Below are positions 46,083 through 49,505 of a stretch of DNA of 64,000 bases, piece by piece; the stretch's first letter is position 1, and every line of letters starts with the position of its first letter. The stretch comes from Robiginitomaculum antarcticum DSM 21748 (lineage in GTDB: Bacteria; Pseudomonadota; Alphaproteobacteria; Caulobacterales; Maricaulaceae). Under the pieces are notes generated by a model. The model was not told the origin of the DNA. It worked only from the letters and a program-made list of their open reading frames with translations, and searched no databases. The position numbers were made by a program, and so were the translations under genes. Location: contig NZ_KB823011.1 of the NCBI RefSeq assembly GCF_000365025.1, positions 186,001 to 250,000 of the forward strand, in the 5' to 3' direction.

Positions 46083-46351
46083 TTTTCATTATTTGAAATT
46101 TACTAAAAAATTCCTGTATTTTTATTGTTCTTTTAACTTCAAAAGAATGAGAGCAATTGCTTTCTGTAGTAATTTAATGCTATTCTTGAATATAATGAAC
46201 TGCTAATTGCTGTGAAATTCGTGCCTTAATTAACATTTGCGTGTTTTGCTTTTAAATCTTCAGGAAAGTGACTTGAATGATTAAAGAGATAAAGTCATAA
46301 ATTGCGCGCCTAATAGAGAATTAAATTCAGTAAAAATAGGGAATCTGAATA
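46083..46351. promoter_or_regulatory. Very AT-rich leader upstream of the AT-hook/DUF2853 gene
   Basis: Hand count over 46081-46320 gives 66 G/C of 240 (about 27 percent), the lowest of the window. The stretch holds many A and T tracts (for example TACTAAAAAATT, TTTTTATTG) and no coding frame or hairpin terminator. It may contain the promoter and possible AT-hook-type binding sites. Confidence 0.55.
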
Positions 46352-47401
46352 ATGGAAAATATATTTGCTAATTTGAGTACGGCCGAGATCGTTCTTATTG
46401 TGTTGGCCTTGCTGCTTGGGCTAATCTTAGGGTGGCTCTTCTTTGGACGTAAAAGTCATGAGGGGGATCTCTCACGCGAAGGAGAAAGCGCCATTCAAAA
46501 CGAAGCTAGCGAATTGCGCGCGCGGGTGCGAGAGCTGGAGTCCGGAGTTAAATCCCGCGACACCGAGCTGGGCGAAATGCGCGGCAAACTTAAAGCCGCT
46601 GCTGCCGAGGGCGCTGCAGCCAGCGCGATTGCCTCTGCTTCAGATAATGACGCACCATCTGGTGATGATGATGCGACATACGCACTGGAATGGCGAAACC
46701 GCTATCTAGCTGCCCGCGTAAAATATCTTGAAGGTCGCGTATCTGATGGCGCAAAACCTGCAAAATCAAAGTCTGCGCCTAAAAAAGCAGCCGCTAAAAA
46801 ATCGTCGAGTAAAAAAGCGACTACGGCCAAAAAAGCGACTACGGCCAAAAAAGCGACCACTAAGACAGTGGCAACGGATGATGCACCTGTGAAACGGGGC
46901 CGCGGACGTCCTCGTAAAGATGCAAGCGCAAGCGCAACTGCAACGACGGCCAAACCAAAGACCAAGACTAAACCGAAAACCAAAACCAAAACTAAGGCCA
47001 AGGCCAAGACCAAGACGGCAACAGCAACAGGCGAGAAGCGCGGTCGCGGCCGTCCGCGTAAGACCCCTGTCAAGCCGGAAAAAGGCTCCCTTGAGTGGTA
47101 CCACGAAAATGTACAGCGTTATCACGGCACAGCCGCCAAGGCCGTTGTGAAATCTATCAAAACGCATTTAGGCGCTGCGATGGCAAGTCGCGACTCAGCC
47201 TTAGTCGCCTGTTCTGATTCAAAAGAAGTCGATACAGTCGTTAAAAATTGGTGCGTTGATAACCTTAAGCAAAGCAAAGACGCCGCTGAGGCCAATGTTG
47301 CCAGCGTTTGCGAAGAAATGAAGAAAGACCGGTTCAAAGACCGCGTCACGTTCTATTATTTATGCGCTAAAAATGCCCGCAAATTGAGCGCTATGAAATA
47401 G
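46352..47401 (+). CDS. Membrane-anchored AT-hook / lysine-rich protein with C-terminal DUF2853 domain
   Basis: 349 aa with an unusual layout. One transmembrane helix lies at about 9-30 (TAEIVLIVLALLLGLILGWLFFG). A charged, probably coiled-coil stretch spans about 45-80. A histone-H1/AlgP-like linker has KKATTAKKATT and KPKTKTKPKTKTKTK repeats at about 135-228. Two exact AT-hook cores RGRGRPRK are preceded by Lys (181-189 and 229-237). About 248-347 match the small alphaproteobacterial DUF2853 domain (YHENVQRYHG, SRDSALVACSDSKEV, KDRVTFYYLCAKNARKL), which normally stands alone at about 100 aa. AT-hooks bind the minor groove of AT DNA, so the protein could tether the nucleoid to the membrane. 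Function unproven; it ends at a strong terminator. Confidence 0.75.
   Translation: MENIFANLSTAEIVLIVLALLLGLILGWLFFGRKSHEGDLSREGESAIQNEASELRARVRELESGVKSRDTELGEMRGKLKAAAAEGAAASAIASASDNDAPSGDDDATYALEWRNRYLAARVKYLEGRVSDGAKPAKSKSAPKKAAAKKSSSKKATTAKKATTAKKATTKTVATDDAPVKRGRGRPRKDASASATATTAKPKTKTKPKTKTKTKAKAKTKTATATGEKRGRGRPRKTPVKPEKGSLEWYHENVQRYHGTAAKAVVKSIKTHLGAAMASRDSALVACSDSKEVDTVVKNWCVDNLKQSKDAAEANVASVCEEMKKDRFKDRVTFYYLCAKNARKLSAMK
46811..46858 (+). repeat. 18-bp tandem repeat inside the lysine-rich linker
   Basis: AAAAAAGCGACTACGGCC occurs twice in tandem (46811-46846), with the first 11 bases (AAAAAAGCGAC) of a third copy following; it encodes KKATTA repeats. Further short ACCAAGAC/AAAACCAAG repeats code KTKPKTKT at about 46950-47020. 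Slippage-prone; copy number may vary between strains. Confidence 0.75.
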
Positions 47402-47426: not shown

Positions 47427-47452
47427 AACCCCGCCTTGTGCGGGGTTTTTTA
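47427..47452 (+). terminator. Rho-independent terminator
   Basis: AACCCCGC, loop CTTGT, GCGGGGTT, then TTTTTATT; 26 bp after the DUF2853 gene. It isolates that gene from the lysis-like pair that follows. Confidence 0.9.
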
Positions 47453-47527
47453 TTGGCACTTTCAAGCTCTTATAGCATTCAATCGCAGATTAATCCCCGC
47501 CTTCTTCAGGCCGTCTATATTGGATGT

Positions 47528-47929
47528 GTGAAGCAAAACCCGAATATATCCGCTTGGCCATGGCCGCATTTTTCCCGAATTGAAGTAGCCTGCCGTCATT
47601 GCGGGCAAGGCTATTACTGGCCTGCATTTATGAACGCGTTGGAAGACTTACGCACACATATGGCCCGCCCGATCATTATCCACTCCGCCCACCGCTGCGC
47701 GTTACATAATGCGCGGGTCGGCGGCGCGCCTTTATCGCAGCATTTAAAACTCGCCGTGGATATTAGCCTTAAGAGGCATAATTTGCGTGATTTGGCCCGC
47801 ACAGCCCGCGGCGCAGGCTTTACCGGTTTTGGATTTTACACAACATTTTTACATCTGGATATGGGCCGGCCCCGTCACTGGTTTGGCGGCCTCGAAGCGA
47901 GAACATTATGGCAGACATACTTGGATTAG
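47528..47929 (+). CDS. M15-family peptidase (endolysin-like)
   Basis: About 133 aa from a GTG (VKQNPNISAWPW); the longer frame would start inside the preceding terminator. FSRIEVACRHCGQGYYW is the usual entry of M15A peptidases, then IIIHSAHRCALHNARVGGAPLSQHLKLAVDISL supplies His and Asp zinc ligands and FLHLDMG the last His. No signal peptide. Such D-Ala-D-Ala-type peptidases serve as phage or GTA endolysins. Its stop overlaps the following holin-like gene by 22 bp, supporting a lysis role. Confidence 0.8.
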   Translation: MKQNPNISAWPWPHFSRIEVACRHCGQGYYWPAFMNALEDLRTHMARPIIIHSAHRCALHNARVGGAPLSQHLKLAVDISLKRHNLRDLARTARGAGFTGFGFYTTFLHLDMGRPRHWFGGLEARTLWQTYLD

Positions 47930-48366
47930 GACTGGACGCCGCAGCCGGCGGTGCATTTGGGTTAATCGGGACGGCGCTGGGCCGCGTGGCGGGTTTTTTC
48001 GAGCGCCGCCAGACCCACGCCCAAGAGGTGCGGCAATGGTCACATGAACTCGCCCTGCATGAGCTCCAAATGAAAGCGCGGCAGCAAGAGACTGAAATGC
48101 AAATGGCTATCGAGGCGCAGCAGGGCAGTTGGGCGGGACTTGAAGCCTCTATTAATGCCGATAGAGCCTTGGGGCAGGGTAGCCAGTGGGTGGTCAATAC
48201 GCTGCGTCTGGTCCGTCCATCGCTAACACTGTTATTGTGGCTTATTACCGCCTATATTTTCGCGGTTACGAAACAGGACACCATTATCGAAGCCGCTGTT
48301 TTCGCGGCAACTGCGGCGACCCTATGGTGGTTTGGGGATCGCGCGCCCAAGCCAAGGTCAATGTAA
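47908..48366 (+). CDS. 3-TM holin-like protein (GTA/phage type)
   Basis: 152 aa. A glycine-rich amphipathic start (ILGLGLDAAAGGAFGLIGTALGRVAGFF) is followed by a long charged helix (HELALHELQMKARQQETEMQMAIEAQQGSWAGLEASINADRA) and two C-terminal transmembrane helices (LRPSLTLLLWLITAYIFAV-like and IIEAAVFAATAATLWWFG). This matches the layout of the three-helix holins linked to gene-transfer-agent release. Together with the M15 gene it makes a compact lysis cassette without structural phage genes nearby. A non-lytic membrane role cannot be excluded. Confidence 0.65.
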   Translation: MADILGLGLDAAAGGAFGLIGTALGRVAGFFERRQTHAQEVRQWSHELALHELQMKARQQETEMQMAIEAQQGSWAGLEASINADRALGQGSQWVVNTLRLVRPSLTLLLWLITAYIFAVTKQDTIIEAAVFAATAATLWWFGDRAPKPRSM

Positions 48367-48377
48367 GGCTAAATCGC

Positions 48378-49505
48378 CTATCCGCCGATATTACGGCTCA
48401 TAATCGTCATCATAATAATAATCATGAGAATGAGGATAACGAACAAATATAGGATAGCTGTCGTGTAGCTGGCGATAATCGTTTTGATCCAACCGCGCCC
48501 GAACATTCGCTTGAGACTGATCGGGAGATAGAAAATCAATATGAGCAATATGGATTGAGCGATCTTATTACCGGGGATTGTTGTGCTGAGAATAATGCCG
48601 ACAAAGATCAATAGAAACATGACGCCGTGAATATAGGCGGCGTGCACCAGATGATCGAATAGTAGCGCATCTTTTCCGCGAATAAATACTGCGCCGGACA
48701 ACATAGCCACAGGCAACATAAAGAATAATATGCGCGGCAGCCAGGTTTTGAGCCCGGTGTTCAGCGTAGCCGGATTACGGATGATCTGCGTTATAAAATC
48801 TGACATGTCATTTGCTGAAATTATACGCTCTTCACCGTTGACACTATTAATTGTAATGGTTCGGTCACCGCTGTCTTTTGTCCGAATTTTAAGGTTTGGA
48901 GTATCGACCTCATCATCTCCCCCATGGTTGAAAAAACCGCCGCTGACTTTTTCCCGGACAATATCGAAATCAAGCGTTTCATTTCGACGTTCGATGGCCG
49001 CGCGCGGTTCGAAAAAATGGGCTTTGAAGCCCATATCATAATCGTCGGCAGTCAATTCGGCAGCGGCTTTATTTTGCGTAGTATCGAGCTGCGTTAACGA
49101 CACTTCGAAACTGAAAATTTGCCGTCCCGTCAGGCTTAGAAAGCCAAATAGAATAATTGACATAAATATGTAGACGCGCACCGGCGAGGTCCAATGAGTG
49201 CGGCGGCCATTACAATATTCGCGGGCGACTTTACCGGGCCGTATAATCAGGTTCAGCCACGTGCGCCAAATCCGGTTTTCAAACGCAAAAAGCGATGTAA
49301 ACGCTTCCCAGCCCATACCGAAGATCGAACGTCGCAAATCATCATTTTTCTGGCCGCACTCTTTACAATATAGACCGACTATTGGCGCGCCGCAGGAGAA
49401 GCAATTTAGACTTTGATTATTGTCAGGAACACCATCGCCACTTAAAAGGTCACTGTCGGCTAAAACAGCAAGAGCAACGCCTTCTTCTAAGTGATCATCC
49501 GGCAT
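48378..49505 (-). CDS. DUF3667 membrane protein with N-terminal zinc ribbon
   Basis: 375 aa. CFSCGAPIVGLYCKECGQKN (about 36-55) is a four-cysteine zinc ribbon, then FENRIWRTWLNLIIRPGKVAREYCNGRRTHWTSPVRVYIFMS, the DUF3667 hallmark. One transmembrane helix follows at about 115-135, a periplasmic domain of about 130 residues, and three to four C-terminal helices (about 265-372). Function unknown; it may sense or transport. It converges with the holin gene (11 bp between stops). Confidence 0.82.
   Translation of the reverse strand: MPDDHLEEGVALAVLADSDLLSGDGVPDNNQSLNCFSCGAPIVGLYCKECGQKNDDLRRSIFGMGWEAFTSLFAFENRIWRTWLNLIIRPGKVAREYCNGRRTHWTSPVRVYIFMSIILFGFLSLTGRQIFSFEVSLTQLDTTQNKAAAELTADDYDMGFKAHFFEPRAAIERRNETLDFDIVREKVSGGFFNHGGDDEVDTPNLKIRTKDSGDRTITINSVNGEERIISANDMSDFITQIIRNPATLNTGLKTWLPRILFFMLPVAMLSGAVFIRGKDALLFDHLVHAAYIHGVMFLLIFVGIILSTTIPGNKIAQSILLILIFYLPISLKRMFGRGWIKTIIASYTTAILYLFVILILMIIIMMTIMSRNIGG

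Follow-up and report, generated by a model that had tools for sequence, protein, structure and literature searches.

A 349-residue protein of Robiginitomaculum antarcticum with putative AT-hooks is an atypical ortholog of a modular membrane protein of marine Hyphomonadaceae

By synteny, the 349-aa protein described here is orthologous to a modular protein found in marine Hyphomonadaceae. It is encoded in Robiginitomaculum antarcticum DSM 21748, within a 64-kb stretch of contig NZ_KB823011.1 (positions 186,001 to 250,000) that was analysed whole and that we call the window; coordinates below count from its first letter. Comparison of the orthologous sequences places the conserved core of the family in a membrane helix together with a YALEWRNRYLAARVKYL box, and not in the hooks. 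Our preferred reading, held at somewhat less than an even chance, is that the protein would tether nucleic acid at the inner membrane, that its ancestral form had a peptidoglycan-binding partner, and that its gripping module has since been exchanged. The gene and its flanks contain the following features.

46083-46351, plus strand: non-coding AT-rich leader, 269 bp at 27.1% GC, at the position where relatives carry a BON-OmpA gene
46352-47401, plus strand: gene for the 349-aa protein, with membrane helix, coiled coil, box, basic linker with two putative hooks, and DUF2853
46388-46444, plus strand: membrane helix, aa 13-31, mean Kyte-Doolittle value 3.05 (AlphaFold helix 2-31)
46478-46612, plus strand: coiled-coil helix, aa 43-87, predicted helical, with a weak coiled-coil Pfam match at aa 57-80
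46679-46729, plus strand: conserved box YALEWRNRYLAARVKYL, aa 110-126, from an alignment of 22 orthologs
46811-46857, plus strand: exact 18-bp tandem repeat, 2.6 copies, within the linker
46892-46918, plus strand: putative hook 1, KRGRGRPRK, aa 181-189, at the position of the HHH domain in relatives
47036-47062, plus strand: putative hook 2, KRGRGRPRK, aa 229-237, preceding DUF2853; RGPGRPRK stands there in the congeneric ortholog L061
47099-47389, plus strand: DUF2853 domain, aa 250-346, Pfam E 1.3e-23, with the fold of 2pyq
47427-47447, plus strand: terminator-like hairpin with a T run, by consensus match only

The original prediction placed a membrane helix, a coiled coil, two hooks, a Lys/Thr/Ala linker and a C-terminal DUF2853 domain in one open reading frame, and the 349-aa ORF bears this architecture out. 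Residues 1-12 contain no Lys or Arg, and GRK directly follows the membrane helix, which suggests an N-out/C-in topology with the basic part in the cytoplasm. A LapA-type Pfam match over the membrane segment is sub-threshold. AlphaFold, supplied with 22 sequences, predicts helices at residues 2-31, 43-87 and 106-133, disorder from about 134 to 246, and a folded DUF2853 domain afterwards; the mean pLDDT is 68.8 overall and, averaged over 10 residues, lies at 86-97 from about position 241 onward. The linker (aa 131-249) carries a net charge of +32.

The DUF2853 match (PF11015) scores 83.9 bits against a cut-off of 25. The model of this region (window 47087-47398) consists of helix-loop-helix pairs with short strands inside the loops, and it aligns with 2pyq (jann_4075) over 104 residues at Z 15.7 and rmsd 2.0. 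A Foldseek search with the domain returned no match besides 2pyq below E 0.001, and the assignment to a known nucleic-acid fold was rejected on that result. In a second structure comparison, EF-hand proteins rank next after 2pyq, mostly at Z 4-5 with one at 6.7, a resemblance that may reflect just a common helical arrangement. DUF2853 had been described as normally a 100-aa protein, which fits its occurrence in the class sample: 9 of 385 genomes contain the domain, our species included, and the 8 others hold 9 matches in open frames of 106-157 aa (the frame in G071, 128 aa, was obtained by reading the DNA). One class-sample copy (L283) has a Lys/Ala-rich N-terminus. The R. antarcticum genome itself encodes three copies: the one in the 349-aa protein and two others, in proteins of 104 and 290 aa. 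The 290-aa protein, a second long DUF2853 protein (L001, 1492-2364, minus strand), has a helical N-terminus and a basic Lys/Ala linker, and similar proteins occur in the group. Its Pfam phasin match (E 0.079) lies below the cut-off, so that membership in the phasin family was rejected and the label "phasin-like", as used below, is a guess.

A search for the same architecture, proposed together with the original prediction, retrieved syntenic orthologs in marine Hyphomonadaceae. At the protein level, matches were found in 58 of 119 genomes (own included), many through DUF2853 alone. A scan of named genomes gave 56 loci labelled Robiginitomaculum, Hellea, Algimonas, Litorimonas, Hyphomonadaceae or uncultured Caulobacterales, with the cultured Litorimonas cladophorae and Hellea balneolensis among them; the exceptions are two labelled "Alphaproteobacteria" and one "Rhizobiaceae" bin. 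An ortholog usually begins with the membrane helix and coiled coil, continues through the box and a Lys/Ala linker to the HHH domain, and ends with a second basic linker (which contains KKPGPKPGTKRG in some) and DUF2853. The "HHH" label rests on Pfam HHH models, which match the ortholog domain solely below their cut-offs, and on DDLKLIKGIGPKFEKDL-type sequence; a candidate name for this domain, in the orthologs as in NuoE, uL15 and uS2, is COG3743. Of the 29 box-bearing orthologs among L008-L036, 22 were aligned (L009, L013, L017, L024, L029, L030 and L035 were excluded), and the box is invariant in them from Y110 to L126, as are G38-D-L40 and several DUF2853 positions. L009 and L013, both outside this alignment, read WQNRYL, with Gln replacing the first Arg of the box.

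Relatives share a common gene order over stretches of up to 17 kb. Peptidases, a nitronate-monooxygenase-like gene and BON-OmpA precede the box gene; an M15 peptidase, a membrane protein of ~150-165 aa, DUF3667, two SDRs, an APH kinase and an acyl-CoA dehydrogenase follow it. Reading the loci of 57 sources gave 56 rows, L084 giving none. Among the 50 complete loci, a count that omits six cut or short rows (L061, L098, L108, L111, L112 and L113), BON-OmpA lies directly upstream in 44 and the M15 peptidase downstream in 37, some contigs being short. The window keeps this order without BON-OmpA and has the AT-rich leader in that place. Searching the R. antarcticum genome with the BON-OmpA protein of L061 gave OmpA-domain matches only, at 27-33% identity, and the BON-OmpA gene is apparently lost in this species. 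At another locus, L104, a small ORF upstream of the box gene resembles only the N-terminal membrane segment of BON-OmpA and is perhaps an independent loss of the partner. Behind the box gene of the window lie an M15 peptidase gene (47438-47929, plus strand), matching the PHROG endolysin family phrog_894 at E 1.2e-22, and, overlapping it, the gene for a 152-aa membrane protein (47908-48366, plus strand), matching phrog_6637 (unknown function) at E 1.1e-07. Relatives likewise have this pair behind the box gene, and it is reminiscent of a lysis cassette; a DUF3667 gene (48378-49505, minus strand) is convergent with it and occupies the same place in relatives.

Module content varies among the 50 complete loci: 35 encode HHH and DUF2853, 12 encode DUF2853 alone (window included), two encode two HHH domains without DUF2853, and one encodes two HHH domains with DUF2853. 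An HHH domain is thus absent from the 349-aa protein and from 11 further loci. BON-OmpA is missing at five of the 12 HHH-less loci versus one of the 38 HHH-bearing loci (Fisher p 0.002), a comparison in which phylogeny is uncontrolled and on which we build no claim. The ortholog L061, from the same genus and taken from matching coordinates to be the same genome as L010 (G002), is 73% identical to the 349-aa protein in its best segment and has BON-OmpA, HHH and one hook, RGPGRPRK. By comparison with such relatives, the HHH domain appears to have been lost in the window's species, with a putative AT-hook in its former position.

The RGRGRPRK core occurs twice in the hooks, and the Pfam AT_hook model (PF02178), over two stretches, reaches 14.1 bits, below its cut-off of 17.4. 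A nucleotide pattern for the hooks, allowing CGN arginine codons only in the first positions, matched the R. antarcticum genome four times, twice within the 349-aa gene; the reversed control gave 0. Another membrane protein of this genome, L007, ends in the hook-like sequence RGRPSKFKR. Six of the nine codons differ between the two KRGRGRPRK copies and every change is synonymous, which rules out a recent DNA duplication as their origin; set against the DNA-exact repeat in the linker, these synonymous differences fit constraint or selection on the hook protein sequence. Canonical GRP[RK] hooks were found in 2 of 52 orthologs, a GPKP motif in 20 and neither in 30 (counted over rows of 250 aa or longer, L061 and L098 again included). 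At this frequency the hooks are a local variant of what is otherwise a conserved envelope protein, and among the sampled orthologs they are nearly confined to the genus.

The leader had been singled out as the AT-rich extreme of the window at about 27% GC, and it is indeed so: the lowest-GC 269-bp segments fall here (26.8% from 46067), and the next non-overlapping one has 36.4%. That it is a natural target of the protein's own hooks was not supported. In 46 relatives, the 150 bp upstream of BON-OmpA average 40.6% GC (range 28-65%), 9 points below their own loci, with start codons chosen by rule and some of them doubtful; AT-richness at this place is therefore common, if less extreme than in the window, where the leader occupies the position of the partner gene. 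The leader shows weak similarity to the intergenic region of L061 (33% GC), with 3 of 300 shuffles scoring as high. Its derivation from a decayed BON-OmpA gene was rejected, as 102 of 300 shuffles matched its local alignment to the L061 gene. Two promoter-like sites were found in the region against 2.1 expected from shuffles, so that we claim no promoter from them; the leader probably holds the promoter of the 349-aa gene. Rfam gave five matches over the gene and its surroundings, none reaching the gathering score. A xenogeneic silencer, or an autoregulated regulator that binds AT-rich DNA, would account for the hooks and for the most AT-rich stretch of the window lying directly upstream, and nothing beyond these two features was found in its support. 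Silencer families of the H-NS, MvaT, Lsr2 or Rok type are not among the Pfam matches of the 349-aa protein at E up to 1, the hooks are a near-genus trait and the leader has the precedents just given. We consider such a role very improbable.

The family extends beyond the DUF2853-bearing group. A model of the N-terminal part has matches, many of them weak, in 140 of 299 genomes of the order. Sixteen loci outside the group were read, about 13 of which belong to different families within the order and some to different genera within the family; at 15 of them the gene immediately downstream of BON-OmpA encodes a protein that is hydrophobic at its N-terminus and ends in an HHH domain, and the remaining locus is at a contig edge. 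DUF2853 was not found in these distant members (L057 by Pfam, the others by a DUF2853 model built in this analysis). Since the BON-OmpA pairing occurs without DUF2853 elsewhere in the order, the pair appears to predate the fusion with DUF2853, and the canonical hooks look youngest of the three. Two distant members directly behind BON-OmpA, L150 and L151, lie in open reading frames of 893 and 860 aa, respectively; each contains 8 WRxxYL boxes and ends in an HHH domain, and in them the box is a repeating unit, while others of the distant members have no box by that pattern.

An old BON-OmpA pairing, boxes repeated up to 8 times in distant members and conservation centred on the N-terminal helix and box would also suit an envelope or polar scaffold with no nucleic-acid role, in which coiled coil and box scaffold together with BON-OmpA and the linkers, HHH and DUF2853 are freely drifting contact or spacer parts. 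Linkers do change through repeat slippage, and the tails that these domains form on ribosomal proteins vary or are missing. Free drift is, however, hard to square with two hooks that stay identical across synonymous changes and sit in the HHH position, or with linkers that are basic in the orthologs read, and we judge this scaffold somewhat unlikely.

The fusion to DUF2853 is not unique to the 349-aa gene: in relatives, the domain also ends uS2, uL15 and phasin-like helical proteins. R. antarcticum has C-terminal HHH tails on NuoE (L117), uL15 (L118) and uS2 (L119), and an HHH tail was present on NuoE in all eight genomes read. We surveyed ribosomal tails in 30 genomes selected for matching the 349-aa protein, so that the counts describe that group only; the two genome sets sampled overlap and are not independent. 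Among 29 uS2 sequences with a complete tail, 18 end in HHH, 7 in DUF2853 and 4 in neither; for 25 uL15 sequences the numbers are 11, 12 and 2; and the two domains never occur together on either protein. (The broken uS2 of G001 and the cut uL15 of G003 and G032 were excluded, and G021, G023 and G036 gave no uL15 match.) HHH and DUF2853 thus replace each other as tails on uS2 and uL15, which was unexpected and is more surprising than the hooks. On a tree of the uS2 and uL15 cores, uS2 requires at least 3 exchanges between HHH and DUF2853 and uL15 at least 5, while the presence of HHH on the membrane protein must have changed at least 4 times; support for the tree is modest, with 11 of the 26 inner branches starred, so these minima are rough.

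Such tails mean that the modules need not bind DNA, and RNA binding or protein contacts would fit them too. The protein could accordingly be a membrane tether for ribosomes or RNA, its linker and DUF2853 or HHH domain binding rRNA, mRNA or tagged ribosomes and holding translation near the membrane, with DNA incidental. Besides the use of the same two domains on uS2 and uL15, this would account for the 21 of 26 comparable genomes in which one or more module types of the membrane protein recur on uS2 or uL15. The other five share none, and they include R. antarcticum, where the membrane protein has DUF2853 only and uS2 and uL15 have HHH only; simple like-with-like tethering to the ribosomal tails was rejected on these genomes, and the AT-hook is a DNA motif. 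We find this tether unlikely, slightly more so than the scaffold. A broader scheme, possible but doubtful in our view, would treat HHH, DUF2853 and AT-hook/GPKP segments as interchangeable nucleic-acid-gripping or sorting tails which, in a group of marine Hyphomonadaceae, are attached through basic linkers to uS2, uL15, phasin-like proteins (DUF2853), NuoE (HHH) and the membrane protein with its peptidoglycan-binding partner. Such tails would connect nucleoid, ribosomes, respiratory complex and envelope spatially, and the 349-aa protein would be the membrane arm with hooks swapped for HHH.

Both HHH motifs and AT-hooks belong to known nucleic-acid-binding classes, and the hook in the former HHH position suggests that nucleic-acid gripping is the retained job. 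For the preferred reading, an inner-membrane nucleic-acid tether, we infer oligomerisation, nucleic-acid binding and tethering as follows. The single N-terminal helix would serve as the inner-membrane anchor and most of the protein would lie in the cytoplasm, where coiled coil and box probably mediate oligomerisation or contact with a partner. The long disordered polybasic linker, with its nucleic-acid-binding modules, would keep DNA, and possibly RNA, close to the membrane. Ancestrally, the paired BON-OmpA should bind peptidoglycan and so complete a wall-membrane-nucleoid link, adding wall contact in those species that retain it; in the window's species, where HHH and BON-OmpA are apparently gone, the AT-hooks would take over the gripping. 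The original proposal of a membrane-tethered nucleoid organiser survives in part: the predicted anchor, the probable cytoplasmic face and the nucleic-acid-binding features of the architecture, including a hook in the HHH place, support it, whereas the hooks are not the family core. If the membrane protein does hold DNA, these marine bacteria would possess a simple wall-membrane-nucleoid link. HHH tails and DUF2853 substitute for one another on identical ribosomal proteins yet are found together on a single membrane protein. Their exchange makes the role of DUF2853 directly testable: on uS2, uL15 and the membrane protein, its function should be one that an HHH domain can take over.

In the open-licence literature, DUF2853 appears in one paper, as a table entry; searches there gave nothing on alphaproteobacterial ribosomal-protein HHH C-terminal extensions, NuoE with HHH, or ribosomal protein S2 with HHH, and no matching system for AT-hook, BON-OmpA or phasin. 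COG3743 is mentioned there in one report, on Halomonas PhaC2 (PMC8686332). Among known families, DUF2853 (PF11015, 2pyq) shares its domain profile and fold with the C-terminus of the 349-aa protein, but it occupies short frames in the class sample and is here one module of a membrane protein. The resemblance to AT-hook proteins (PF02178) lies in the two cores within a basic linker, and the difference in the membrane anchor and the Pfam score under the cut-off. As functional parallels, two nucleoid-binding proteins that hold something there are comparable: PhaM of Ralstonia eutropha attaches PHB granules to the nucleoid (PMC3556143) and FrzCD of Myxococcus xanthus binds the nucleoid through a basic histone-like tail (PMC5716589), and neither is reported there as a membrane-anchored AT-hook protein. 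The HHH domain (candidate COG3743) occurs in the orthologs and in NuoE, uL15 and uS2 of R. antarcticum but not in the 349-aa protein. A further comparison is with the BON-OmpA-paired box-HHH proteins (L057, L150-L164 and the orthologs), which share membrane helix, coiled coil, WRNRYL box and basic linker and, within the group, synteny. The 349-aa protein differs from them in having canonical hooks and neither HHH nor a BON-OmpA neighbour, and from the distant members also in its DUF2853 domain; having shed two traits, it is an ortholog by position and sequence and an atypical member of the family.
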